Of a stretch of DNA of 64,000 bases, positions 4,109 through 45,851 are shown piece after piece; position 1 is the stretch's first letter, and each line of letters opens with the position of its first letter. Made by a program: the position numbers and the translations under genes. The notes below the pieces were generated by a model. That model searched no databases, was not told the DNA's origin, and saw only the letters and a list, made by a program, of their open reading frames with translations. This DNA is from Phyllobacterium chamaecytisi (lineage in GTDB: Bacteria > Pseudomonadota > Alphaproteobacteria > Rhizobiales > Rhizobiaceae): contig NZ_JAIQWW010000018.1 of the NCBI RefSeq assembly GCF_020164455.1, forward strand, positions 62,001 to 126,000, read 5' to 3'.

Positions 4109-4191
4109 TCAAGAGAATGCGTTTCTCTTGATCGCCAAATTGGCTCGCCAAGGCATATTCTAATCGGTCGATGAGAAAATATCAGCAGGCT

Positions 4192-4512: not shown

Positions 4513-4595
4513 AAAAATTCGCCCCAAAGCAGGAAAGTTACCGCTCACATAGGGATTTTGGCGGGCAAGTCAATTGTATTCCCTGACGCAGCCCT

Positions 4596-4991
4596 CTACC
4601 GCTTGGCGGCTTCATGGCGCGCGGCGGTGAATGCTGGAAGGTGCTCGATAATCCAGTGCCAGAGGGGAACCGTCTGCAAAAGAAACTCATATCCGAGCGG
4701 CGTGAGTTCGTATTCCACGCGCGGCGGCACCTGCGGATAAAGTGTTCGAGTGATCAGCCCGTCCCGTTCCAGCATGCGCAAGGTCTGTGTCAAAACTTTC
4801 TGGCTGATACCGCCTACCCGCTCGAGCACGCGGGAAAACCGCAAAGGCCCGCCTGCGGCCTGCAATATCTGCAATGTGCGCAGCGGCCACTTGGCCGAGA
4901 CCCGCTCAAGCATTTCGCGCGCAAATTCGTCCTGTTCGTCGGTCATGGTGGCGCAAAAGTCGATGGCTTGCTGTGAAGGTTGGACAGTCAT
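4596..4991 (-). CDS. HxlR-family winged-helix transcriptional regulator
   Basis: A 131-residue MarR-like regulator with the HxlR pattern: SAKWPLRTLQIL, then LRFSRVLERVGGISQKVLTQTLRMLERDGLITR (recognition helix and wing), ending in YELTPLGYEFL. One cysteine (FCATM near residue 14) lies N-terminal, in the region where redox-sensing HxlR proteins carry their sensor Cys, although this is not proof of sensing. It is divergent from a short-chain dehydrogenase across about 106 bases, the typical layout for an HxlR regulator controlling its neighbour. Start MTVQ was chosen over an upstream ATG because it gives normal family length. Confidence 0.87.
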   Translation of the reverse strand: MTVQPSQQAIDFCATMTDEQDEFAREMLERVSAKWPLRTLQILQAAGGPLRFSRVLERVGGISQKVLTQTLRMLERDGLITRTLYPQVPPRVEYELTPLGYEFLLQTVPLWHWIIEHLPAFTAARHEAAKR

Positions 4992-5097
4992 CTCAGCTCC
5001 TTTGTTTCCAAGAGGTAAGTATAGTTCCAACGGGTTCCTTCTTTCAAGAGGATACTATCGGTCCTATATTGTTTTCAGATAAATCAAGGAGACATTC

Positions 5098-5937
5098 ATG
5101 GCACAGGTATGGTTGATAACGGGCAGCTCCCGCGGCCTCGGCAGGTCGTTGGCAGAAGCGGTACTACGGGCTGGCCACAAACTCGTCGCTACAGCTCGCA
5201 ACCCTTCCCAACTCTCCGATCTGGCAGAGCGTTATGGCGACCAGGTCCGCCTATTCGAACTCGACGTGACCGACCCTGCGGCGGCAGACGCAGCCGTAAA
5301 AAACGCGGTCGATACGTTCGGACGCCTCGATGTCCTCGTCAACAATGCGGGCTACGGCAATGTCAACGCGATTGAAGATACAAGCCTCGAGGAATTCCGG
5401 GCGCAGATCGAGACCAATCTGTTTGGCGTCATCAATGTCACCAAGGCTGCGATCCCGGTGATGCGCGAGCAAAAATCTGGCCACATCATCCAGTTTTCTT
5501 CGGTCGGCGGCCGAATTGGAGCGCTGGGCCGCGCGCCCTACTCTGCCGCAAAGTGGGGTGTCGAGGGTTTCTCGGAAGTGCTGGCCAAGGAGGTTGGTCC
5601 ACTGGGCGTCAAGGTAACGATCGTCGAGCCGGGTGGTTTTCGTACTGACTTTGCTGGCGCTTCAACCACGATCCAGAATGGTCGCCCCGAATATGATGCA
5701 ACGGTGGGCGAAGTGGCCCGTTTCCAGCTCAATTACAACGGAAAACAACCGGGAGATCCTGCCAAAGCCGCGGATGCGGTATTGCACATCACGAGCCTTG
5801 ACGAACCACCGTTACGGCTGTTGCTCGGCAGCGATGCCATGAACGCGGTCGAAAAGAACGATATTGCCAAGATCGAGGCCGACCGCAAATGGCGGACGTT
5901 GAGCGTTTCGACCGACTTTGATGCTAGCGCGTTATAG
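5098..5937 (+). CDS. short-chain dehydrogenase/reductase (classical SDR)
   Basis: A 279-residue Rossmann-fold oxidoreductase. The nucleotide site TGSSRGLG is at 8-15, NNAGYG at 82-87, and the catalytic Ser134/135, Tyr148 and Lys152 (YSAAK) are all present. Arg17 and the ATARNP stretch after beta-2 suggest NADP(H) preference. AAGGAGA lies seven bases before the ATG. The substrate cannot be read from sequence. The divergent HxlR regulator suggests inducible expression, perhaps by reactive electrophiles or quinones. The 3' end overlaps the convergent Hpt-like gene by 14 bases. Confidence 0.88.
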   Translation: MAQVWLITGSSRGLGRSLAEAVLRAGHKLVATARNPSQLSDLAERYGDQVRLFELDVTDPAAADAAVKNAVDTFGRLDVLVNNAGYGNVNAIEDTSLEEFRAQIETNLFGVINVTKAAIPVMREQKSGHIIQFSSVGGRIGALGRAPYSAAKWGVEGFSEVLAKEVGPLGVKVTIVEPGGFRTDFAGASTTIQNGRPEYDATVGEVARFQLNYNGKQPGDPAKAADAVLHITSLDEPPLRLLLGSDAMNAVEKNDIAKIEADRKWRTLSVSTDFDASAL

Positions 5938-20027: not shown

Positions 20028-22325
20028 ATGGCCAACGACCAAACGCCCAGCAACTCTGATCTCGAAGAAAGCGCGCTGTTCTATCATCGCTTTCCTCAGC
20101 CGGGTAAGCTGGAAATCCAGGCGACGAAGCCGCTTGGAAATCAGCGCGATCTTGCCCTCGCCTATTCTCCCGGCGTCGCTGCGCCATGTCTGGCGATTCA
20201 CGAGAATCCAGCGACGGCCGCCGACTATACGAGCCGCGCCAATCTCGTCGCAGTCATCTCCAACGGCACCGCTGTCCTCGGCCTCGGCAATATCGGCCCG
20301 CTCGCGTCCAAGCCCGTGATGGAAGGCAAGGCTGTCCTCTTCAAGAAATTCGCCAATATCGATGTGTTCGATATCGAAATAGACGCACAGGAAATCAGCA
20401 AGATCGTCGATGTGGTAGCGGCGCTGGAGCCGACTTTCGGCGGCATCAATCTCGAAGACATCAAGTCGCCGGAATGTTTTGAAGTCGAGGAACAACTTCG
20501 CGCCAAAATGAACATTCCGGTGTTCCATGACGACCAGCATGGTACTGCGATCATCGTGGCGGCGGCTATTCTCAACGGCATGGAACTTGCCGGAAAAGAG
20601 CTCTCCAAGATCAAGATCGTCGCTTCCGGGGCCGGCGCCGCGGCAATCGCTTGCCTGAACCTCCTTGTGAAGCTCGGCGTTGACCGCAAGAACATCTGGG
20701 TCTGTGACCTTGACGGTGTCGTCTATGAGGGCCGCAATACGCTGATGGACCGCTGGAAATCGGTCTACGTGCAGAAAACCGATGCGCGGGTTCTCGCGGA
20801 TGTCATCGGCGGAGCTGACGTCTTTCTCGGCCTTTCGGCCGCCGGTGTGCTCAAGCCCGAGCTGTTGAAGCAGATGGCACCGAACCCGCTGATCATGGCC
20901 TTGGCCAATCCAAACCCGGAGATCATGCCGGATGAGGCGCGCGCGGCCCGTGCCGATGCGATGATTTGTACCGGCCGTTCGGACTTTCCCAACCAGGTCA
21001 ACAACGTCCTCTGCTTCCCCTTCATCTTCCGCGGCGCACTCGATTGCGGTGCACGGGCGATCAATGAGGAAATGAAGATGGCGGCAGTGCAGGCTATTGC
21101 CGCGCTGGCTCGCGAAGAGCCATCGGACGTTGCCGCCCGCGCCTATTCCGGCGAGACGCCTACGTTCGGACCGAATTACCTCATCCCCTCGCCATTCGAT
21201 CAGCGCCTCATTCTGCGGATCGCGCCGGCTGTTGCCAAAGCCGCGATGGACACCGGCGTTGCCGAACGTCCAATCGAGGATTTCGACGCCTATCTCGACC
21301 GGTTGAACCGCTTCGTCTTCCGCTCCGGCCTGATCATGAAGCCGATCTTCACCGCGGCAAAAACGGCGGAGAAGAAGCGCGTTATCTATGCGGATGGCGA
21401 GGATGAACGGGTCTTGCGCGCAGCCCAGGTTGTGCTGGAAGAAGGCATCGCCATCCCGACCCTGATTGGACGCCCGCAGGTCATAGAGACGCGTCTGCAG
21501 CGCTATGGGCTGAAGATCAAGATCGGCACCGATTTCGATGTCATCAATCCCGAGGATGATCCGCGTTATCGCGATTACGTCGATCTGCTGCTCAATCTCA
21601 CAGGACGGCGGGGCACAACACCGGAAGTCGCTCGCACCATGGTTCGCGCCAGTGGCACCGTCATCGCAGCACTTGCTATCGTTCGCGGTGAAGCCGACGC
21701 AATGATCTGCGGTCTTGAAGGCCGTTTTGAGCGGCACTTGCGTAATGTCGACCAGATTATTGGAAAACTGGAGGGCATACGCAATTTCTCCGCGCTGAGC
21801 CTGCTGATTTCGCAACGCGGTGTGCTGTTCCTGACCGACACCTACGTCAGTATCGATCCGACTGCAGAGGAAATCGCTGAAAAAACGGTTCTTGCCGCCA
21901 ACGAAATCCGCCGCTTCGGCATCGAGCCCAAGGCAGCCTTGCTCTCGCATTCCAATTTCGGCTCACGCGATTCCGAAAGTGCAGCAAAGATGCGGAGCGC
22001 ATCAGAAATTCTGCGCGTCAAGGCGCCTGATCTGGAGCAGGATGGCGAAATGCATGGCGATTCCGCGCTTTCGGCGATCCTGCGCGAGCGCGTACTTCCG
22101 CATTCGCGGCTGAGCGACGAAGCCAATCTGCTGGTTTTCCCTAATCTCGACGCGGCGAATATCACCCTCAACGTCGTCAAATCCGTCACCGATGCCTTGC
22201 ATGTCGGCCCGATCCTGCTCGGTGCCGCCAAGCCCGCACATATCCTGACGCCGTCGGTCACATCGCGCGGTATCGTCAACATGACGGCACTGGCGGTGGT
22301 GGAAGCATCTCAACGCGTTGATTAA
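20028..22325 (+). CDS. maeB: NADP-dependent malic enzyme with phosphotransacetylase-like C-terminal domain
   Basis: A 765-residue protein. Residues 1-430 are the malic enzyme: [19 protein letters not shown]-like [22 protein letters not shown] and the dinucleotide site [11 protein letters not shown]; residues 440-765 resemble phosphotransacetylase ([40 protein letters not shown]). The fused PTA-like domain in this class is regulatory, binding acetyl-CoA, and is normally without PTA activity. It decarboxylates malate to pyruvate with NADPH (or NADH in the Dme subtype). ATG 20028 follows CCCGGAGG. Rhizobia carry two such enzymes, and sequence reading does not tell which cofactor this one prefers. 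Confidence 0.93.
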
Positions 22326-22388
22326 CAGGCGGGTGTCTTATTGCTGCCGCATGGCCGTGGCTGGTTCGTGCGCATTCACTCGCCTCGA

Positions 22389-23321
22389 ATGCGCATGACA
22401 ATCTTGGGCCGCCGCATGTACCGGACATTTCAGATCGCCTTTATGGCAGCGACCGCCGTCTTGGCGGCGGCGCAACTTTCTTCCGCAAATTCAGATATTT
22501 GCGCGCGCATGCTGCACCGGCTGGACGAGCTCAACCGCAACGCCGATGTCGATGACTTCGAACTCAGTTTGCGGCGTGACCGCGTCGAAGCCGCGCTCGA
22601 TGCCAATAATTGTTCTGCCGTGGACGACCGCGTCTATGATGACCCGGAGCCGGACACGGCGGGTTCGCAGTCTTACGAGGTTCTGGGGAAAGAGCCCGAA
22701 CCTGTCGAGCCGGAAATGAGTACAGCTCCGGTCTATGGCGGCCGATACCAGACACTTTGCGTGCGTGCATGTGACGGCTACTATTTCCCGCTCTCCTATG
22801 AAACCGGCGCGGAGAATTTCTCACGCGATCAGGCGCAGTGCCAGTCCCAGTGTCCCGGCGCAAAGCTGTACTATCAGCCCACAGACAATCCAAATCCTGA
22901 AAGGATGACTTCGTTAAGCGGCGAAGATTACAAGGACATGCCGAATGCCTTCAAATTCAGGAAGGTAGGAGCCAATGGAACGCCGCAATGCGGTTGCCAG
23001 AGATCGGCCGGAAATTTCACCACCTTGGGCAATCCAGCGGCGGCGACATCAGCCATAGGAAAGCCCGGAGAACCAGCCAAAGTTGTCGAACCTGCGAAGC
23101 CTGTTGAAACCACAGTCGAGCCGACAGTGCCGGCAGCTCAATCGACCGAAAATTCGTCGTCCATTATTCAGCTGGGTGAACCCGCAAAGACCAAGACGGA
23201 AGCACCGCTGCCGCAGCCGCTTACCGGCGACAAGCCGATCGATCCGAACCGCAAGGTCAGGGTCGTCGGGCCAACGTTCCTTCCCGACCAAGAAGAGATG
23301 GACTTCGGGAAAAAACCTTGA
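22389..23321 (+). CDS. DUF2865-type secreted protein with a replaced C-terminal tail
   Basis: About 310 residues: a signal peptide (IAFMAATAVLAAAQLSSA), a helical N-terminal part with Cys pairs, then the DUF2865 core TLCVRACDGYYFPLSYET with SQCPGAKLYY and PQCGCQ, and a Pro/Ala/Glu-rich tail. Disulfides in the periplasm are likely. The start is uncertain; ATGs at 22389, 22395 and 22416 are all possible and none has a clear Shine-Dalgarno. The last residues, [12 protein letters not shown], lie inside a 41-bp repeat; after it the frame ends in EEMDFGKKP, whereas the second repeat copy continues in this frame with EGATNLRAP, the ending usual for such proteins. Confidence 0.75.
   Translation: MRMTILGRRMYRTFQIAFMAATAVLAAAQLSSANSDICARMLHRLDELNRNADVDDFELSLRRDRVEAALDANNCSAVDDRVYDDPEPDTAGSQSYEVLGKEPEPVEPEMSTAPVYGGRYQTLCVRACDGYYFPLSYETGAENFSRDQAQCQSQCPGAKLYYQPTDNPNPERMTSLSGEDYKDMPNAFKFRKVGANGTPQCGCQRSAGNFTTLGNPAAATSAIGKPGEPAKVVEPAKPVETTVEPTVPAAQSTENSSSIIQLGEPAKTKTEAPLPQPLTGDKPIDPNRKVRVVGPTFLPDQEEMDFGKKP
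23255..23295 (+). repeat. 41-bp direct repeat, left copy (att-like)
   Basis: Identical base for base to 27465-27505, beginning GGTCAGGGTCGTCGGG and ending CCGACCAAGAAG. This copy encodes the [13 protein letters not shown] end of the DUF2865 protein. The flanks on both sides differ between the copies, so the repeat has sharp edges. Confidence 0.92.
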
Positions 23322-23324
23322 CGA

Positions 23325-23684
23325 TCAATCCGTTGTAACTTTTTCGCGCGGCGGAATCGGAATTCGACAGACGCGGCATAAAATGAAACCCTGCCAGTGT
23401 GCAGCGAACCGAACCGCCGGCACGCTCGATAGTCGGAGTATGAAGCGGAACGAGTGTTGTGCCGTCATCGATGTCGCACATTGATCCGCGTCGAACGCGG
23501 CAAGCGCCGTGGTCGACAGCGCGAGGATGCGCCGTCCGTCGTGACCCTGAAGCTCCAGCGCGTTACCGGCGAAATTCGCGATCTGCATGCTGGTCAAGGC
23601 AACGACGGTGCGACTGGGTCGCTCAAGCCGGACGACGACTTCGTCGCGCCGTCGCCGCTCGGTTATCATGTGCGTGCCGATCAT
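23325..23684 (-). CDS. possible small protein of unknown function, 119 aa
   Basis: An open frame with plausible composition in its first 75 residues (MITERRRRDEVVVRLERPSR, then a helical stretch with LQGHDGRRILALSTTALAAF). The last 40 residues look less protein-like, with FILCRVCRIPIPPRE. I recognise no family. It lies at the left edge of the inserted module, downstream of the oxidoreductase operon on the same strand, and could be a decayed end of a donor-genome gene. No clear Shine-Dalgarno. Confidence 0.3.
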   Translation of the reverse strand: MIGTHMITERRRRDEVVVRLERPSRTVVALTSMQIANFAGNALELQGHDGRRILALSTTALAAFDADQCATSMTAQHSFRFILRLSSVPAVRFAAHWQGFILCRVCRIPIPPREKVTTD

Positions 23685-23790
23685 GGCGAACTGCGTCGGC
23701 CACGAGGTCTCCTCTGATATCAGTCGTCGGCTAGTTGGACGCAGCGGAGCTGCCAGTTGAGCAACAGCAAGCGCGAACGAGAGCGAACCA

Positions 23791-24759
23791 CTAGGGAAGG
23801 AGGAGCAGCTTTCCGACGCTGCTTCTGCTTTCCATAAGCTGATGCGCCTGCGCGGCGTCCGCCAGGGCGTATTCTGCCCCAATCTTGACCTTGAGGTCCC
23901 TGCTTCCAACCAGTCCGAACAGCGCCGCGGTGCGCTCGCGGAAGAGTGAGGGAGTGTGGATATGGTCCAGGAAGACAGCATAGCCGATCTTGATGCTCTT
24001 CGGCAGTTGCATGAGCTCCAAGGATTGTGGGGCGCCCAGCACCGGGCCGAACCAGCAAAACGTACCGGAGCGCCGCAACGATGCCACAGAATCCTCAAAC
24101 GTCGCCGGCCCCGAGCCGTCGTAGACGACGTGCACGCCTTCACCCCCCGTCAGCCGCAGCGCCTCGTCGGCAAACTTGCCGTCGCTGTTGACGATGACAT
24201 GATCCGCGCCGGCGTTCCTCGCGGCGGCCACCTTATCCTCGCTCGAAACCCGGCCGATGACCCGACCACCGCGCAGCTTGATCAATTGCGTCAGCAGCAG
24301 GCCGACGCCGCCCGCGGCGGCGTGAACCAGTGCGACATCACCCGGCTGAACAGGATGGAAGTCCGTCGCGAAATGGCTGGCGGTCAGCCCCTGCATCATC
24401 AGCGCTGCCGCCGTCCTGTCGCTGATCGCATCCGGCACGGGCGCAAGCGAGGTAACCGGCAACGCGATGCGTTGCGCGTAGCTGCCCGGACCATAGACCC
24501 AGGCGACGCGCTGGCCCGGCCTAAACTCGGTTACGCCGTCGCCCACGGCGACGATGCGGCCCGCACCTTCGACGCCTAGGATCTTCGGATCCGGCAGGTC
24601 GGTCCAGATGACACCGCGTCGGGCGCCGATGTCCATGAAGTTGACCCCCGCGGCGGCGATCTCGACCAGCGCCTCGCCCGGACCGGGCGCGGGATCCGGC
24701 AGATCGACCCATTCTAGCGCCTCGGTTCCGCCGGGCCGCCTCATCCTGACCGCCTTCAT
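23791..24759 (-). CDS. zinc-independent quinone oxidoreductase-type alcohol dehydrogenase (MDR superfamily)
   Basis: A 322-residue MDR enzyme: GroES-like N-terminus (GEALVEIAAAGVNFMDIGARRG, residues 28-50), the NADP-binding AAAGGVGLLLTQLIKLRGGRVIG near 147-170, and C-terminal GKLLLLP. Zinc ligands of alcohol dehydrogenases are missing, as in QOR/CrtE-like NADPH:quinone reductases. It overlaps the upstream Gfo/Idh/MocA gene by four bases (ATGA type). As the last gene of the module's operon it probably reduces an enone or quinone intermediate; the actual substrate is unknown. Confidence 0.87.
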   Translation of the reverse strand: MKAVRMRRPGGTEALEWVDLPDPAPGPGEALVEIAAAGVNFMDIGARRGVIWTDLPDPKILGVEGAGRIVAVGDGVTEFRPGQRVAWVYGPGSYAQRIALPVTSLAPVPDAISDRTAAALMMQGLTASHFATDFHPVQPGDVALVHAAAGGVGLLLTQLIKLRGGRVIGRVSSEDKVAAARNAGADHVIVNSDGKFADEALRLTGGEGVHVVYDGSGPATFEDSVASLRRSGTFCWFGPVLGAPQSLELMQLPKSIKIGYAVFLDHIHTPSLFRERTAALFGLVGSRDLKVKIGAEYALADAAQAHQLMESRSSVGKLLLLP

Positions 24760-25853
24760 CTTAAGCGGCCTCGCTCGATACCGGCGCTACGCTCGATCGC
24801 ATCGATAAGGCGATGCAATTCGACGGCGTCGTCGAAGGTTGGGCTGAGGCGGGTGCCCTGCCGCATGTCGGATGCTATCCTGGCATAGGCGACGGCAATG
24901 CCTTGCGACGGCCCTTCGGCGAAGTGATCCATGCCGTAAAACGCCGGTATCTCGATCGCTTGCAGCGCCTGATCGCCGCTCGCGCCCATCAGCCTAAAGC
25001 CGCCGAAGCCCGCATAGCCGACCGGGCTGGTGAGAATGATGTCCCCTCCCGTGCCGTTGATCTCGAGATGGAAGTTGGTCCCGCGCGACAGCCCGCCGCG
25101 AAAGTGCGTAGCCACAACCACGCCGTTCGCCAGCGTGCCGTTCACGACGACCTGGTCCGGAACAGTCATCGGCAGCACAGCGCCCGTCTCGTCGGTCCGG
25201 GTCGTCTTGCGGCGAATGGCATATCTGGCGTCCACCGTCTCAAACCGACTGCCAAGCACGTCGAGCAATCCGTCGATCGAATGGGCAAAGACGACGTTTT
25301 GCATGCCGGCGCCCATTGCAGGGTCGAGCGTGTAGGCGAAGGTCTCGCTCATGGACGCGCCGAAGGTGATGCCGGAGCCGATCATCGTCGCAGACAGGAC
25401 CTCGCCGACATAGCCGTCCCGGATGAGGTCCCGGATGTGGGCGAAGGCCGGCGTCGCGCGCGTCTGGAGGCCGATTGTGGTCGCTACGCCTTTCGCCTTC
25501 GCCCGGTCGCGCATCGTCACGGCGTCGGCGAGGTTCATGCCGAGCGGCCACTCCGAAAAGACGGCCTTGCCGGCGTCGATCACACGGGTGACGAGGTCGA
25601 GGTGGTGCGGAACCTTGACGGCGATAACCACCACGTCAACCTCCGGATAATTCATCAACGCCTCGTTCGTCGTCAGTGCATGAGGAACGTTGAATTTTTG
25701 GGCGGCGGCTTGAACTGCCTCCGCATTGCGGTGGCTGATCGCAGTCAAGCGAAATTCGGGAAGCTGCTGCAGGGCGGGAATATGGGTCATCGTCGCCCAG
25801 CCCTTTTCGGGATGGACGCCGATGATGCCCACCCGGATCGGATCGTCAGTCAT
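24756..25853 (-). CDS. Gfo/Idh/MocA-family oxidoreductase
   Basis: A 365-residue protein: RVGIIGVHPEKGWATMTHIPAL at the N-terminal Rossmann fold (about 6-27), then VDVVVIAVKVPHH, GKAVFSEWPLG (the EKP-like motif, here EWP instead of the common EKP), and a C-terminal alpha/beta domain. The Trp in place of the usual catalytic-loop Lys is odd for a dehydrogenase of this family, and may mean a different reaction or cofactor handling. It overlaps the QOR gene and is 12 bases after the SnoaL-like gene. Substrate unknown; sugar, inositol or aromatic derivatives are acted on by family members. Confidence 0.85.
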   Translation of the reverse strand: MTDDPIRVGIIGVHPEKGWATMTHIPALQQLPEFRLTAISHRNAEAVQAAAQKFNVPHALTTNEALMNYPEVDVVVIAVKVPHHLDLVTRVIDAGKAVFSEWPLGMNLADAVTMRDRAKAKGVATTIGLQTRATPAFAHIRDLIRDGYVGEVLSATMIGSGITFGASMSETFAYTLDPAMGAGMQNVVFAHSIDGLLDVLGSRFETVDARYAIRRKTTRTDETGAVLPMTVPDQVVVNGTLANGVVVATHFRGGLSRGTNFHLEINGTGGDIILTSPVGYAGFGGFRLMGASGDQALQAIEIPAFYGMDHFAEGPSQGIAVAYARIASDMRQGTRLSPTFDDAVELHRLIDAIERSAGIERGRLR

Positions 25854-25865
25854 GGGGATATTCCT

Positions 25866-26306
25866 TTAATTCTGGGTGATTTCGAGGATCGTCCGGCGCA
25901 GCTGCAGGCGCGCGATGCGCCAGCCCTCCGCGCTATGGACCCATGTTTCGTGATAGTGACCATAGCCGTGCAACCGCGCCGGCTGGTCAGCCCGAGGGGC
26001 GGGATTGACGACGATGTCTTCCATCGCCCAGATCGCGGTGATCTCACGCTCGGAGACGATGTCGATCTCGGCATTGTGCAAATGATGGCTTGAGCGCGCG
26101 CCGTCGAGAAAGTTGCGAACAGCGCTTGCAAATTCTTCTCGCCGGCTAAAGGCGGCAATAGTGTTTCCGTCCGAATCGAGCATCTCGATCGTTGGCTCTG
26201 GGACGAAAAGAGCGGCGAGTTCATCCCATTGCCCGGTATCTACGAAGCGGCAGTAGCGTGCCTTGACGCGCCGTACCTGCTCAATCGGATAATTCGCTTT
26301 CGCCAT
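25866..26306 (-). CDS. SnoaL-like / NTF2-fold protein
   Basis: A 146-residue protein of the NTF2-like fold: IEQVRRVKARYCRFVDTGQWDELAALFVPE at the N-terminus is the usual helix-helix opening, followed by IEMLDSDG, then SSHHLHNAEIDIVSEREITAIW and GYGHYHETWVHSAEGWRIARLQLRR. Relatives are dehydratases, isomerases or binding proteins for polycyclic or aromatic compounds. The start at 26306 was chosen because AAAGGAGA lies eight bases before it; two upstream ATGs are in frame but follow no such site. First gene of the module operon and divergent from the AraC gene across about 100 bases. Confidence 0.82.
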   Translation of the reverse strand: MAKANYPIEQVRRVKARYCRFVDTGQWDELAALFVPEPTIEMLDSDGNTIAAFSRREEFASAVRNFLDGARSSHHLHNAEIDIVSEREITAIWAMEDIVVNPAPRADQPARLHGYGHYHETWVHSAEGWRIARLQLRRTILEITQN

Positions 26307-26409
26307 GACGTGCATCTCCTTTACGATGCACATGTATGTGCGCTTTCAACTTCTTTAAGCTACCGAAAGTCCCAATTTATTGCTCGATCGTCCAGAACAG
26401 CGTGGAATT

Positions 26410-27342
26410 ATGGACCCTCTGACCGAAACTCTCGTCGAGATGCGAATCCGCAGCGCGACCTTCACGCGACTGGAGGCCACCGCCCCATGGGCCTGGGCAT
26501 CACAGGGCGACCGAGCGGTCAAGTTCGTTCTCGTCGTGCGCGGCTCGGGTGTCCTCACTACGGTCAATCATCCGGAGCCGATCCACCTTCGTGGCGGCGA
26601 TGTCTTCATCATGCTCGATGACGAGCCGTATCGGATGTACGATCATGAAGCCTCACTGCCGATACCGTGCGTCGATGTAGAGAAGCTCCGTATCGGTCAT
26701 CGGATCGAGGTCGGCGGTGGTGGCGCGCCCACCACCTTTGTCAGTGGCTCTTTCGAAATGGACAGGTTAGATCTGCGGCCGCTCATCAGCGTCCTGCCGC
26801 GGCTGCTCCATCTAAAGCTCGACCAGAACCGTAGCCTGGCCTTTCAGTCGGTGCTGGAGTTGCTAGCCGGCGAGACCGAGGCGCCCGGCCTCGGCTCGGA
26901 AGCTGCGGTCAGCCGCCTGTTCGAGCTCCTCTTCGTGCATGCGATCCGGGCCTACTCCGCACAGCCCGGCGGACCAGGAGTCGGCTGGCTGGCGGCAATC
27001 TGCGACCGAAACCTGGCGCGCGCAGTCGAGGCGATGCACACCGAGCCGGCAGCAAACTGGACATTGGATCTGTTGGCGAAACAGGCCGGGATGTCCCGCT
27101 CCGCCTTCGCCGCACGCTTCAAGGCGGTAGTCGGACAGACCCCGCTCGACTATCTCACTCGCTGGCGCATCTATCGCGCCAGCCGCCACATCCAGCGCAG
27201 CGGCGCCTCCGTCGCCGCGGTGGCGCGCGAGGCCGGCTACGACTCGGTGGCGGCCTTCAACCGTGCGTTCAAGCGCGAGACGGGCCTCACGCCAGGAGCA
27301 TTCCGCAAGGCGGCGAAGGCCGGCGCGGAACAGGTGGGATGA
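26410..27342 (+). CDS. AraC-family transcriptional regulator with cupin-type sensor domain
   Basis: A 310-residue regulator. Residues about 5-165 are a cupin_6-like ligand-binding domain (FVLVVRGSGVLTTV, PIHLRGGDVFIML); residues about 205-305 are the AraC double helix-turn-helix (WTLDLLAKQAGMSRSAFAARF, then VAAVAREAGYDSVAAFNRAFKR). ATG 26410 has only a weak GGAA upstream. Divergent from the SnoaL-like operon, which it most likely controls in response to the substrate or an intermediate. Part of the GC-rich module and followed by a strong terminator at the module's right edge. Confidence 0.9.
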   Translation: MDPLTETLVEMRIRSATFTRLEATAPWAWASQGDRAVKFVLVVRGSGVLTTVNHPEPIHLRGGDVFIMLDDEPYRMYDHEASLPIPCVDVEKLRIGHRIEVGGGGAPTTFVSGSFEMDRLDLRPLISVLPRLLHLKLDQNRSLAFQSVLELLAGETEAPGLGSEAAVSRLFELLFVHAIRAYSAQPGGPGVGWLAAICDRNLARAVEAMHTEPAANWTLDLLAKQAGMSRSAFAARFKAVVGQTPLDYLTRWRIYRASRHIQRSGASVAAVAREAGYDSVAAFNRAFKRETGLTPGAFRKAAKAGAEQVG

Positions 27343-27431
27343 GAGGCTGCCTCCGTGACAGTTCCGTTGACGACCAACTCACAGGCCGCGTTTTGTTCTT
27401 TTGGCACTGCGTCTCGACTGCCGTAATAACG

Positions 27432-27462
27432 CCCCGGAAAACATTGCGCTTTCCGGGGTTTT
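27432..27462 (+). terminator. terminator at the right edge of the module
   Basis: CCCCGGAAA (27432-27440) pairs perfectly with TTTCCGGGG (27450-27458) around a nine-base loop, followed by TTTTCT. It would end the AraC transcript and sits two bases from the 41-bp repeat. Read from the other strand it could also serve gltX, though its T run is weaker. Confidence 0.85.
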
Positions 27463-27464
27463 CT

Positions 27465-27505
27465 GGTCAGGGTCGTCGGGCCAACGTTCCTTCCCGACCA
27501 AGAAG
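27465..27505 (+). repeat. 41-bp direct repeat, right copy (att-like)
   Basis: Exact copy of 23255-23295. On the minus strand it encodes the last residues of glutamyl-tRNA synthetase ([12 protein letters not shown] and the TGA at 27467-27469). Confidence 0.92.
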
Positions 27506-27549
27506 GGGCAACAAATCTGCGAGCTCCGGACCAGAAGACAGCCCAGTAA
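27465..27549 (+). pseudogene. displaced native 3' end of the DUF2865 gene
   Basis: Read in the DUF2865 frame, the right repeat copy gives [12 protein letters not shown] and then continues as [15 protein letters not shown] to a TAA at 27547-27549. That ending (a GAxxLRAP motif after the FLPDQ stretch) is the type I expect for DUF2865 proteins. It has no start or upstream coding sequence here, so it is a stranded gene end inside the antisense of gltX, left behind when the module was inserted. Confidence 0.65.
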
Positions 27550-28840
27550 GCGCGATACGCAGTGGCATGAACAGCGGCTTGCCCTTGCGGCCGCTCTGGG
27601 CTTTCACCGCATCGGTCCACAGCTTCCAGGTCTCGCGGTTCCAGGGCTCGGGCGGCAGTAGATCGAAAGCGGCACGAACGAATTCGCGGTCCTCTTCGGC
27701 AAGCTGTTCGTCCGTCGCAGGACTTTCTTTGATGATCTTCCACCAATTCGTAGCATCGGACACGCGCGAAAGATTGCCCCGAACTGCGAGCCAGAATTCT
27801 TCCGCGCGGTCGCCCTCGATACCAAGCGCTACAAGGCGATCCTTTGCTTGCGCATAGGGCATTGCGTGAATCAGCGCGCGGTTGAGCGCATCCAGTTCAG
27901 CCGGGTCGAACTTCGAAGCCGATTTGGAGGTTGCCGCCGGGTCGAAAATATCGGCCAGCGTGGCCATGTCCGGTACGGCAGTCACATTTTCCGACGTTCC
28001 AATCAACACCGCAAGACTGGCCACAGCCATCGGTTCATAGCCGTCACGCCGCAAACTGCCGATCGAAAGCGCACCGGTACGCTTGGAGATCCCCTCTCCC
28101 GACGCCGTGGTCAGGAGGTTGATGTGACCAAGTTCGGGAACCTTGGCACCCAGAGCCTCGATGATCGAAATCTGTACGCCACTGTTGGTAATGTGGTCGT
28201 TGCCACGGATGATATGGGAGATGTCCATGTCGATGTCGTCAACGACCGAAGTGAACGTATAGAGATAGGTGCCATCTTCCCGTATCAGAACCGGATCAGA
28301 AAGCGAGGCGAGATCAACCGTTTCCCTGTCGCGCACAAGATCGTTCCAGTGAACTTCGGTCCTCGTTACCGAAAACGGATCGTCCTTGAAGTTTGGCAGC
28401 AGGAAGCGCCAATGCGGCCGGCGCCCTTCCGCCTCAAGCTTTTCTCTATCGGCTGACGTCAGCTTCAGGGCATCGCGCCCATAGATTGGCGGGAGGCGCC
28501 GCGCCAGGCGCAGCTTGCGCTTGCGTTCAAGTTCCTCGGCAGTCTCGTAGCAGGGATAAAGCACACCGGCTGCCTTGAGTTTTTCGGCCGCAGCATCATA
28601 GATCGGGATGCGCTTCGACTGGTATTCGATGCGCACCGGTTTGATGCCCAGCCAGTCGAGGTCCGCGATCGTCGCTTCAGCGTATTCCGTCTTGGAACGA
28701 ACGGTATCCGTGTCGTCGAAGCGCAGGATGAATTGGCCATTGTTCTTGAGGGCGAAAAGCCAGTTGAACAAGGCAATACGTGTATTGCCAATGTGGATAT
28801 AGCCGGTCGGAGACGGTGCAAAACGGACGATAATGGTCAT
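27467..28840 (-). CDS. gltX: glutamate--tRNA ligase
   Basis: A 457-residue class I aminoacyl-tRNA synthetase. The first catalytic motif is HIGN (16-19, in [21 protein letters not shown]); the KMSKS loop reads GISKR, which is degenerate. Substrate pocket segments [23 protein letters not shown] are present. Many alphaproteobacteria carry two such enzymes, one of which can charge tRNA-Gln with glutamate; which one this is cannot be told. The last 13 codons and the stop lie inside the 41-bp repeat and appear intact. Monocistronic, 66 bases downstream of the ABC exporter's stop in divergent-free orientation. Confidence 0.93.
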
Positions 28841-28874
28841 GCTTGCGGCATATCGGATAGAGCCAGCAATGGCA

Positions 28875-28904
28875 ATATGGGCCGCGTTTGCGCGCGGCCC
28901 ATAT
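28875..28904. terminator. hairpin right after the ABC exporter stop codon
   Basis: ATATGGGCCGCG (28875-28886) and CGCGGCCCATAT (28893-28904) form a perfect 12-bp stem with a six-base loop, starting one base after the exporter's TAA. There is no T run on either side, so it may protect the 3' end or act with other factors rather than as a simple intrinsic terminator. Confidence 0.6.
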
Positions 28905-28905
28905 C

Positions 28906-30720
28906 TTAGTCATCGTTGAGGACAAGCCCCTTGGTCAGCTCAAGCGTCTGCAACTCGAACAGGCCGCGATAGATGCCTCCATGGAGCCCGATCAACGCTT
29001 CGTGGTTACCCTCTTCGGCAATACGGCCGTGCTCGAAAACCAGGAGCCGGTCGAGCGAGCGCACAGTCGACAGACGGTGTGCGATCACCAATGTCGTCCG
29101 TCCCAGCATCAGCCGCTCCATCGCCTGCTGGATCAGCACTTCCGATTCCGAATCGAGACTGGAAGTGGCCTCGTCCAGAATAAGAACCGGAGCATCCGCA
29201 AGGAAAGCCCTGGCAATGGCCACTCTCTGGCGCTCGCCGCCTGAAAGCTTGACACCGCGTTCGCCCACAAGCGTGCTGTACCCCTTCGGCAACGCCGTGA
29301 TGAAGTCATGCGCGCTGGCCTGCCTTGCCGCCTCTTCGATCTCACCTTGCGTGGCACCGGGCCGGGCATAGGCGATATTCTCCGCCAGCGAACGATGAAA
29401 CAGGATTGGCTCCTGTTGCACGATGGCGATCTGCTGGCGCAGCGAAGCCTGTGTGACCCCGGCAATATCCTGACCATCGATCAGGATCTGGCCCGATTTC
29501 ACATCATGCAATCGCTGGATCAGCTTGACGAACGTCGTCTTGCCCGAGCCTGAATGACCAACCAGACCGACCCGCTCGCCTGCCCGGATCGTCACCGAAA
29601 ACCGGTCATAAAGCGGCAGGCGATGTGCCCCATAGTGGAACGTCACATTGTCGAACTCGATCTTGCCATTGTTGATCCGGATCGGCTTTGCGCCGGGCCG
29701 ATCTTCAATGCCAAGCGGTTGACTCTGGATATCAACAAGCTCCTCCATGTCATTGACCGAACGCTGCAAATTGCGGATGTGCATGCCGACTTCCCGCAAA
29801 TAGCCCTGCAGGATGAAGAACGAGGTTAGCACGAAGGTGATATCACCCGCACTCGCCTGCCCGTTCGACCACAGGATCAGCGCGAAACCGATGACCGCAG
29901 CCCTCAGCATTAGCAGCATCGTTCCTTGAGATGTTCCGTTCCAGGTACCACGAACCCAGGTGCGAGCCGTCCGGTCCCTCCATTTGGTCAAAACGCTGGC
30001 GAGACGCGCATCCTCACGGCTTTCTGCACCGAAGCCCTTCACCACCATGTTGCAACTGACGGCATCAGCCAGCGAACCGCCAAGCTTTGTATCCCAACGA
30101 TTCGCAAGCCGTGCCATCGGCGCAACGTAACCCAGTGAGAGAGATGCGGTGACAGCAACGAACAGCAACGAACCAATGCCGATAATGACGCCCATCAACG
30201 GCCAATACCAGGCCATTAGTGCTGTCGAACCAATCAGCATGATCACCGACGGAAACAGCGCCAGCAGCAGCGTATCGTTCAACAAGTCCAGGGCCCACAT
30301 ACCGCGCGTTACCTTACGAACCGTCGAACCGGCAAAGCTGTTGGCGTGCCACTCCGTCGAGAAACGCTGGATGCGGTAAAACGCATCTGAGGCAATTTCC
30401 ATCATCATGTTCAGCGTCAAATCGACAATCTGCATGAAGGTGATATGCCGTAAGATGATTGCACCGAGGGACAAGGCAAGCAGTGTTGAGAACGCAGCGA
30501 TTGCCGCGTTCCAGACGACCGCCTCGGTGGCGTGACCATTGACCACAGCGTCGACCAAGCGACCCGAATAGAGCGGCGTCAACACGTCGGCCAGTGTCGA
30601 GAGCAACACTGCAACTGCAATGACGGCGATTCGCACCGGCTGTCGCTGCCAGTGTAACCAGGTGAATCCAAGAACGCTGCGGAATGCGCCGCCGCGCAGG
30701 TCTTTACGAAATAAAGCCAT
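28906..30720 (-). CDS. ABC transporter, fused permease and ATPase (exporter, MsbA/LmrA type)
   Basis: A 604-residue half-transporter. Residues 1-330 hold six membrane helices ([34 protein letters not shown], etc.); residues 360-590 are the ATPase with Walker [10 protein letters not shown], signature [15 protein letters not shown] and Walker [14 protein letters not shown]. It works as a homodimer, or heterodimer if a partner exists elsewhere. Start at MALFRK preceded by AAAGACC-type sequence; a longer frame adds 16 unlikely residues. Upstream is a structured leader with a 14-codon frame, hinting at control by translation or ribosome stalling, as seen for some drug-export genes. Substrate unknown. 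Confidence 0.9.
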
Positions 30721-33215: not shown

Positions 33216-33644
33216 TCAATCCTGTCCGTCGGACGCAACCACGACTCCACCACCACTCCTTGCGTACTTGGGCAGGTCATCGTCAATCTGATAGTAGTCG
33301 CCCTTGTCCTCGACAAAGATATGACTTTCTCCATGCAGGCCGGACGGTTGATCGAATGATCCTGCCATGACGGAAATATAATCGAGATTATTATGCTTCC
33401 AGAAGAGCACTGACCCGCAATTCTTGCAGAAGCCACGGCGGGCAAATTCACTTGCCTCATACCAGCTGATATTTTCTTCGCCGGAAATGTCGATCGAATC
33501 GTCCTGGACGTTCGTCGCAGCGTAAAAATGGCCCGACTGTTTGCGGCATTGCGAGCAATGGCAGTAGACAACACCACGCAGCTTGCCGCGCGTTTCGAAA
33601 TGTACTCTGCCGCACAGGCATGAACCCCGATGCAACTCCATCAT
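33216..33644 (-). CDS. GFA-family zinc protein (CENP-V/GFA domain)
   Basis: A 142-residue protein with zinc-binding cysteines GSCLCGRVHFE (8-18), CHCSQCRKQSG (28-38) and FCKNCGS near 73-78, the standard set of glutathione-dependent formaldehyde-activating family proteins. Many members do not act on formaldehyde, so the role is open. Two adjacent ATGs can start it. It stands alone between dgkA and nhaA, all on the minus strand with gaps of 50-60 bases. Confidence 0.88.
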   Translation of the reverse strand: MMELHRGSCLCGRVHFETRGKLRGVVYCHCSQCRKQSGHFYAATNVQDDSIDISGEENISWYEASEFARRGFCKNCGSVLFWKHNNLDYISVMAGSFDQPSGLHGESHIFVEDKGDYYQIDDDLPKYARSGGGVVVASDGQD

Positions 33645-33707
33645 GCTCTCACCCCGTTATTGTCGAGAACAAAACATAAGCGATACCACAGGCACCGCCT
33701 TTCGCAT

Positions 33708-34883: not shown

Positions 34884-34944
34884 GAGACCTTGATAGAATC
34901 TCGAACGGCAAAACTCCAGCCCAAACGTTTTGATTACTGAAATT

Positions 34945-34972
34945 GAAAAAGGCGGCCCAAAGGACCGCCTTC
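34945..34972 (-). terminator. terminator of the class II DAHP synthase gene
   Basis: AAGGCGG (34949-34955) pairs with CCGCCTT (34965-34971); read on the minus strand the stem is followed by TTTTTC. It starts about 22 bases past the gene's stop. Confidence 0.8.
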
Positions 34973-34993
34973 TATTTCACGAATACCTGAAGA

Positions 34994-36373
34994 TTAACCG
35001 TTGACGGCCATTTTCTGTGGATGGCTGTCGCGCTCTTTCTTCAGAAGTTCCGCAACCAGAAACGCCAATTCCAGCGCCTGATCGGCATTGAGGCGCGGGT
35101 CGCAATGGGTATGGTAGCGATCCTGCAGATCTTCTGCCAGAACCGCCCGCGCACCACCAGTGCATTCCGTGACGTTATTGCCGGTCATCTCGATGTGGAT
35201 ACCGCCCGGATAAGTTCCTTCCGCATGATGCACTCCAAAGAAGGTCTCGACTTCCTTCAGAATACGGTCGAATGGCCGTGTTTTGTAGCCATTGGCAGTG
35301 ATGGTGTTGCCATGCATGGGATCACAGGACCACACGACCTCACGGCCCTCTTTCTGCACCGCACGAATGAGCTTCGGCAGGTGATCGGCAACCTTGTCGT
35401 GACCGAAGCGGGCGATCAATGTCAGGCGACCCGGCTCGTTTGCAGGATTGAGCAGATCGATCAGTCGCAGGAGATCATCAGCTTCCAGTGACGGACCGCA
35501 TTTCAGCCCCAGCGGGTTTTTAATGCCACGGCAGTATTCCACATGGGCATGATCCGCCTGACGCGTGCGGTCACCAACCCAGATCATATGGCCGGACGTC
35601 GCATACCAGTCGCCAGACGTCGAATCGACGCGGGTCAGTGCTTCCTCATAACCAAGAAGCAACGCTTCGTGACTTGTGTAAAAATCCGTCTCGCGCAACT
35701 GGGCATTTGTTTCCGCGGTAATGCCAACAGCGCGCATGAAGTCGACTGTCTCGGAGATGCGACGTGCCAACTGGCCATAGCGCTCGCCTTGAGGGCTATC
35801 GGCAACGAAACCCATCATCCACTGATTGACGTTCTCCAAATTGGCATAACCACCCTGGGCGAAAGCGCGCAGAAGATTGAGCGTCGCGGCGGATTGGCGG
35901 TAAGCCATTTCCTGACGAGCCGGATCCGGGGTGCGCGACTGTTCGGTGAACTCGGTGCCATTGATAATATCGCCGCGATAGATCGGGAGCTCGATGCCGT
36001 CTTTGGTTTCGGTGTCGGAGGTGCGCGGCTTGGCGAACTGACCCGCGATACGGCCCACTTTGACGATAGGCTGAGAAGCACCAAAGGTCAGCACAACGGC
36101 CATCTGAAGGAAGACGCGGAAGAAATCTCTAATATTATCCGCACCATGTTCGGCAAAGCTCTCGGCGCAATCGCCGCCTTGCAACAGAAAGCTTTCACCC
36201 CTGGAAACAGCCGCAAGCTGCTTCTTGAGCTTGCGTGCTTCACCTGCAAAAACCAAAGGCGGATAAGTCCGAAGACGGGCCTCGACATCGCTCACAGCCT
36301 GAGCGTCCGGATAATAAGGAACCTGCTTGATAGGTTTGCCTCTCCAGGAAGTCGGTGTCCAGTTCTTGGTCAT
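34994..36373 (-). CDS. class II 3-deoxy-7-phosphoheptulonate synthase
   Basis: A 459-residue class II (plant/mycobacterial-type) DAHP synthase, first enzyme of the shikimate pathway, condensing PEP and erythrose 4-phosphate. Recognised from [29 protein letters not shown] (metal Cys), [12 protein letters not shown], the long middle part, [10 protein letters not shown] and [19 protein letters not shown]. Class II enzymes are usual in Hyphomicrobiales, where they are often labelled aroF or aroG. Monocistronic with its own terminator. Confidence 0.95.
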
Positions 36374-45113: not shown

Positions 45114-45851
45114 ATGACTTACTGCGTGGGGCTCAAACTGGACCGCGGCCTTGTGTTCATGTCTGACACGAGAACAAATGCCGGTGTCGACAACATTTCC
45201 ACGTTCAAGAAAATGTATACTTGGGCCAAGACGGGCGACCGCGTTATCACGCTGGTTTCCTCTGGCAACCTGGCAACAACCCAGGCCGTCATCAGCATCC
45301 TGAATGAACGCACCAAGGAGCCATCCGAACGGTCGCCGTCGATCTACGAAATGCCATCGATGTTTCAGACGGCAAGGCTCGTTGGCGATACAATTAGACA
45401 CGTCATCGACGAGGTGGATTCCGGCGGGCAGCGTGCCGATTCATTCGGCGCCTCGATTATCCTCGGTGGCCAGATCAAAGGCGGCGATCCGCGGCTTTTC
45501 CTGATCTATCCCGAGGGGAATTTCATTGAGGCGACGCCGGATACACCCTTCTTCCAGATCGGTGAGCACAAGTATGGAAAGCCGATTATCGTGCGGTCCT
45601 ACGACCCTGCACTGACTTTTGAGGAAGCGACGAAGCTGTTGCTGGTTTCCTTCGATTCGACGCTGAAATCCAACTTGTCAGTAGGACTGCCGCTGGACTT
45701 ACAGTTCTACGAGTCGGATAGTCTCAAGCTTGGTTTCGAAAAACGCATCGAACGCCATGATCCTTATTATGAAATGATTTCAGATGGTTGGTCACAGGCC
45801 TTGAAACTTGCATTCCAAAGCCTGCCACCTTTCGAAATCAAAAACGACTAG
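45114..45851 (+). CDS. Anbu, bacterial proteasome-like peptidase
   Basis: A 245-residue Ntn-hydrolase of the proteasome superfamily. Removal of Met would expose Thr2 (MTYCVGLKLDRGLVFMSDTRT) as nucleophile; no propeptide is present. GNLATTQAV, SFGASIILGGQI and the acidic residues near the start fit Anbu (ancestral beta subunit), which forms helical or open-ring oligomers without HslU or Mpa-type ATPase. Typically found with the three genes upstream, as here. Substrate unknown, possibly peptides made by the ATP-grasp enzyme. Convergent with the L,D-transpeptidase gene, 11 bases apart. Confidence 0.92.
   Translation: MTYCVGLKLDRGLVFMSDTRTNAGVDNISTFKKMYTWAKTGDRVITLVSSGNLATTQAVISILNERTKEPSERSPSIYEMPSMFQTARLVGDTIRHVIDEVDSGGQRADSFGASIILGGQIKGGDPRLFLIYPEGNFIEATPDTPFFQIGEHKYGKPIIVRSYDPALTFEEATKLLLVSFDSTLKSNLSVGLPLDLQFYESDSLKLGFEKRIERHDPYYEMISDGWSQALKLAFQSLPPFEIKND

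Follow-up and report, generated by a model that had tools for sequence, protein, structure and literature searches.

How did a 4.2-kb segment come to lie between a DUF2865 gene and gltX, the gene for glutamate--tRNA ligase, in Phyllobacterium chamaecytisi? The question is raised by a stretch of 64,000 nucleotides (assembly GCF_020164455.1, contig NZ_JAIQWW010000018.1, positions 62,001 to 126,000), hereafter the window. A previous reading of the letters without database searches (the sequence-only reading) had noticed 41 identical bases on either side of this segment, with similarity stopping abruptly at both ends. Both claims were borne out. The two copies (coordinates in Table 1) agree at 41 of 41 positions with a spacing of 4210; they are the longest exact repeat of the window and its sole exact direct repeat of at least 20 bp, whereas the longest repeats in 20 first-order Markov sequences of the same length, used as a chance control, were 15-17 bp. 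In alignments with two congeners, G018 and G013 (restricted to plus-strand matches above a minimum length of 100 or 300 bases), identity over the aligned part of the window (300-43460 for G018) was 95.4% and 93.7%, respectively. The window blocks ended at 23295 and resumed at 27465, with a gap of 4169 bases in the window and of -41 in the congener, both congeners being alike. Because the congener flanks abut in this manner, with a 41-base overlap opposite the 4169-base window gap, the comparison indicates that the 41 bp was once single and is now double, and that the insertion is derived in the P. chamaecytisi lineage.

All 19 Phyllobacterium congeners have an empty DUF2865/gltX junction with a single copy of the core, which differs from the window copy by 0-3 mismatches and is exact in seven. 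They are the strains with one repeat and no module that the sequence-only reading had proposed to look for; neither the module without the repeat nor a junction devoid of the single 41-bp core was encountered among these 19. A 33-base core pattern, searched with at most three mismatches, was matched by 115 of 394 family genomes, and a similar pattern by 10 of 397 genomes in an order-level draw; in both searches the window's genome was the only one with two copies. The exact 41-mer was present in 7 of the 127 relatives compared, all seven congeners, and in five stretches of a genome collection that may omit the window's own records, all of them Phyllobacterium contigs, P. trifolii CECT 7015 among them.

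No occupied site was found in 130 relative genomes, and none of 142 inspected loci had room for an insert; other modules at the same site, suggested earlier as a possibility, were likewise missing across the 130 genomes. These genomes are the 19 congeners, 4 further ones, the 105 remaining core-pattern matches and 2 new ones from the order-level draw; they gave 137 loci (7 loci being repeats), to which 5 named records of exact 41-mer matches were added. The count excludes the window's own locus, one locus at another site, and those retrieved for the module, for integrases or in repeat retrievals. The relatives inspected represent one genome per species with close cores, and the 279 of 394 family genomes without a core match are mostly outside this set, so that islands there could be missed. 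GltX was present at all 142 loci. At 135 of them a DUF2865 match ended 80-404 bp from the GltX end, and at the other seven an open reading frame (ORF) with a similar tail still overlapped gltX. In three genomes without a DUF2865 match (L181, L182 and L183; genus g73), another same-strand ORF with the tail GPIRAVGP.FFPD... lies over the gltX end.

This single insertion into an empty site, with its exact duplication, affected both adjoining genes. At empty sites the DUF2865 frame crosses the 41 bp and continues into gltX on the opposite strand, and the GltX stop codon is formed by bases 3-5 of the repeat; the repeat is therefore located where two coding regions overlap in antisense. The right copy keeps gltX whole, stop codon included. 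In the left copy, DUF2865 remains open to FLPDQE and then receives eight residues and a stop from the insert, and its old tail persists beside the right copy, detached from the gene. The left copy also contains a displaced fragment, the last 12 gltX codons plus the stop, the 3' end of the target gene having been regenerated on the other side. The result is a natural replacement of the DUF2865 tail beyond FLPDQE with GltX kept whole.

The 3' ends of gltX and of the DUF2865 gene overlap in antisense in nearly all family genomes inspected. Among 127 relatives, taken from the 142 inspected loci, the DUF2865 codon varies at core offset 19 (A, T, V, E, R and others) with GltX mostly kept, and GltX varies at core offset 23 (G, E or R) with DUF2865 mostly kept; judged by these substitutions, each of the two frames appears to be under constraint, at different positions, which looks like a conserved dual-coding overlap. 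Two glutamate--tRNA ligase genes of this genome exceed the TIGR00464 cut-off, one at G000:C34:59846-61243 (514.8 bits) and the weaker one at the insertion site on contig C10 (320.7 bits); because of this second, stronger match, no claim of essentiality is made for the insertion-site gltX. The 41-bp core includes a 6-bp palindrome with a 12-bp spacer, too short to count, and its folding is ordinary (z -0.64). No inverted repeat of at least 18 bp was found at the insert ends, and Rfam gave no match at the gathering score in window 22000-29000.

Table 1. Features of the insertion site and of the inserted segment (window coordinates)
Feature	Position	Strand	Remarks
DUF2865 gene	22341..23321	+	ORF limits mechanical; native tail beyond FLPDQE swapped for EMDFGKKP
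Left 41-bp copy, attL-like	23255..23295		Within DUF2865 frame; minus strand = displaced gltX end
Inserted segment, 4169 bp	23296..27464		Not at this site in 19 congeners
ctlX 3' remnant, citrulline utilization hydrolase	~23371..23696	-	~Residues 202-309 of 309; frame change near 23472
Zinc-binding dehydrogenase / quinone-reductase-like MDR protein (ADH)	23791..24759	-	
Gfo/Idh/MocA oxidoreductase with Gal80-like C-terminal domain	24756..25853	-	
SnoaL-like (NTF2-fold) protein	25866..26333	-	
AraC-family regulator with Cupin_6 domain	26380..27342	+	Divergent from operon
G+C-rich hairpin	27431..27464	+	Stem 27431-27459, then TTTTCT up to right repeat; folding z -2.4 on +, -3.6 on -
Right 41-bp copy, attR-like	27465..27505		Last 12 GltX codons, stop codon 27467-27469, 2 further bases
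gltX, glutamate--tRNA ligase, complete	27467..28840	-	TIGR00464 above cut-off

The four genes that the sequence-only reading had described as a regulator and a divergent operon were all matched as described, and a broken 3' remnant of ctlX is to be added to them. Its statement that the module is richer in G+C than its surroundings holds for the insert overall (62.8%, versus 57.6% and 57.0% in the flanking 4 kb) and for the genes of ADH (66%), AraC (65%) and MocA (63%), but not for that of SnoaL, which at 58% resembles the five neighbours (57-58%). The Pfam scan covered 16 of the 17 ORFs of at least 100 amino acids that overlap the insert, the ORF 27339-27857 being outside; matches were limited to DUF2865, ADH, MocA, SnoaL, AraC and the ctlX remnant, and ten further ORFs, mostly over or antisense to insert genes, had no Pfam match. 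Neither integration or transfer genes nor a transposase domain were found among the ORFs scanned. The ctlX remnant has no stop of its own where homology ends, and its frame stays open across the left repeat and closes at the displaced gltX stop; the CtlX-GltX-tail fusion frame so formed (minus strand, window 23201-23472) is probably due to chance. A scan of 23200-27600 for sigma-70 promoters and terminators found none; the hairpin next to the right repeat, where the terminator scan made no call, is possibly the terminator of the AraC gene.

None of the NCBIfam models scored above its cut-off with the insert enzymes; from the protein families, the cargo is probably a regulated oxidoreductase operon for a sugar, a polyol or a related alcohol. 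Family matches to the module of at least 300 bases were 64-76% identical among the matches listed, and no donor of the whole module was found, 0 of 336 other genomes in a class draw matching at E<=1e-20; both searches considered no more than two candidate positions in each genome and are not exhaustive. The difference in G+C and this level of identity among the listed matches make the cargo appear foreign. The same genome has a second region (G000:C26:19731-20882) that is 64% identical to the MocA-SnoaL part, with an integrase match about 9 kb off (C26:10498-10998).

The plasmid pSymA of Sinorhizobium meliloti ABS7 (CP073679.1, 1173058-1176688) carries MocA, SnoaL and AraC genes in the same order and orientation, adjoining a zinc-binding dehydrogenase; protein identities to the insert are 57% for MocA, 51% for SnoaL and 63% for AraC. 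It differs in that its dehydrogenase aligns at 33% over 246 residues only and that the surrounding gene table, which is incomplete, has no ctlX. As the MocA-SnoaL-AraC layout is also present on pSymA, the block is of a kind already known among rhizobial gene sets, and the window copy is a mosaic.

To account for the insertion we lean, by a little, towards an element without an integrase, whether lost or never present, that integrated site-specifically at the gltX 3' end. The 4.2-kb segment went into the chromosome at one site, within the stretch at the gltX 3' end that overlaps the convergent DUF2865 gene in antisense; the 41-bp duplication would represent the attachment (att) sites attL and attR of a site-specific, probably tyrosine, recombinase targeting this end; and the element would be a remnant whose integrase was lost or supplied in trans. 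The single core in the empty sites of 19 of 19 congeners, the exact 4169/-41 geometry and the foreign look of the cargo are in its favour. So are a repeat edge only 2 bp from the gltX stop, the regeneration of the gene and the displaced fragment, by analogy the signature of islands at tRNA genes. Islands at guaA reportedly use the 3' end of that gene. According to excerpts of the Islander paper, islands in tRNA genes regenerate the target gene and the displaced fragment marks the other end (PMC4383910); excerpts of two other papers report an att pair of 49 bp, of the same order as the 41-bp block (PMC10087258), and name guaA as a site of islands in Mesorhizobium (PMC8627217).

Several results weigh against this integration. 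No recombinase domain was detected in the 16 ORFs scanned, consistent with the sequence-only reading, which had seen none, and the 130 relative genomes contained no occupied site. No third core copy was found in the genome with 33-base and 24-base patterns (at most three mismatches), and therefore no core lies beside any of its 17 phage-integrase family matches, of which 16 are over the cut-off. The site patterns and the repeat were unmatched in viral contigs and in phage and plasmid collections, within the patterns and limits used (exact pattern matches for viral contigs; E up to 1 for the 41-bp repeat in plasmid records). Finally, the exact 41-mer was found only in Phyllobacterium, a genus to which the cargo looks foreign; this makes a copy from recipient DNA simpler than an imported attP. 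Of the earlier proposal of a site-specific insertion at the 3' end that two convergent genes share, the target is supported by the empty sites, and the role of a site-specific recombinase is a supposition.

Fill-in of a staggered break gives the same final sequence as an att pair. Such a capture, with nicks 41 nt apart at the gltX 3' end, filled-in overhangs and Ku-dependent joining of foreign DNA, is in our judgement unlikely, but several observations fit it: a search for Ku alone gave two matches above cut-off in the genome, the scanned insert ORFs encode no recombinase, the site shows no repeated use (130 genomes; no third core copy), the insert has a mosaic make-up and the gene at its left end is broken, and the 41-mer is the version native to the recipient genus. 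Under this model it is by coincidence that the edge lies 2 bp beyond the gltX stop. Selection to keep gltX intact would make the coincidence smaller, but the genome has a second gltX. A stagger of 41 nt is also long for end joining, and a literature search on end joining in rhizobia retrieved nothing relevant. A base-exact insertion, with the empty site kept in every congener examined, is a good case in which to distinguish, in rhizobia, att pairs made by an integrase from duplications made by fill-in.

A homologous route, either recombination in the flanks with an occupied donor lineage or RecA-dependent integration of a circle carrying 41 bp of the gltX end, appears quite improbable. One crossover with a circle does produce a single duplicated homology block around an insert, but a circle with exactly these 41 bp amounts to attP. 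Identity in the 2-kb flanks (95.5% with G018, 93.9% with G013) equals the aligned-window means given above, and no imported tract is marked, despite a somewhat lower first 1 kb on the gltX side (94.2% and 91.5%, respectively) and one 500-bp bin 2.5 kb off (87%); none of the 130 genomes is an occupied donor. Import of an occupied site was rejected, as flank identity does not change clearly, and the homologous exchange put forward earlier as an alternative receives no support from the flanks. An assembly or contamination artefact is very hard to believe: the assembly is a draft of 93 contigs with an estimated contamination of 0.92%, but a false join presupposes a module with a gltX end of its own on either side, and both copies are internal to contig C10, at 85255 and 89465. 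The weights given to all these readings are judgements and were not computed.

Site-specific integration at the gltX 3' end, the reading that we prefer, invites comparison with known systems. By analogy of geometry, the segment resembles a cis-mobilizable element (CIME), the att-flanked remnant of an integrative and conjugative element (ICE) or integrative and mobilizable element (IME): direct repeats restore a housekeeping gene at its 3' end, cargo is present without recognised integration or transfer genes, and 41-bp copies stand at both ends of the segment with a single copy in 19 of 19 congeners, recognition by a recombinase being only presumed. CIME membership is not established; the 130 relatives and the phages, plasmids and viral contigs searched yielded no ICE, IME or phage that uses this site, and the segment measures only 4.2 kb. 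Like a tyrosine-integrase genomic island, it regenerates the target 3' end and leaves a displaced fragment; unlike one, it has no integrase among the ORFs scanned, and for this reason it is not classed as an active island. It differs from a transposon by the lack of a transposase domain and of a terminal inverted repeat of at least 18 bp, and by a duplication that, at 41 bp, is not short.

The Mesorhizobium guaA islands, as presented in excerpts of PMC8627217, likewise have a conserved protein gene as target, in a related host group, but here the integrase is missing and the target, gltX, overlaps a second gene in antisense. The Aggregatibacter phage S1249 has a long identical att block near gltX; in the excerpted account (PMC10087258), its 49-bp site is between csp and gltX, in another bacterium, and belongs to a full phage with an integrase. 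Judged by titles and the starts of abstracts, the present site is not described in the literature retrieved on gltX attB or integrase, on rhizobial protein-gene islands, on DUF2865 or gltX (best 8 of 358), on Phyllobacterium islands or on glutamyl-tRNA synthetase antisense overlap.

A more specific version of site-specific integration would involve a trans-supplied recombinase that recognises the gltX/DUF2865 overlap, itself fixed by two frames, and inserts a small integrase-free cargo, restoring one gene and re-tailing the other; we regard such a minimal trans-mobilised catabolic cassette as distinctly improbable. If a trans-acting recombinase were found, the locus would offer a site for insertion into the chromosome next to a housekeeping gene.

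Elsewhere in the window, smaller differences from the congeners were seen. At about 840-875, 4120-4191, 33636-33706, 34926-34998 and 45851, the window has 36-73 bases (none at 45851) versus about 150-200 in G013 (792 at one place); these short length differences are possibly small repeated elements. A 1.3-kb tract (window 4594-5890) is common to the window and G018 and missing from G013, where it was likely deleted.

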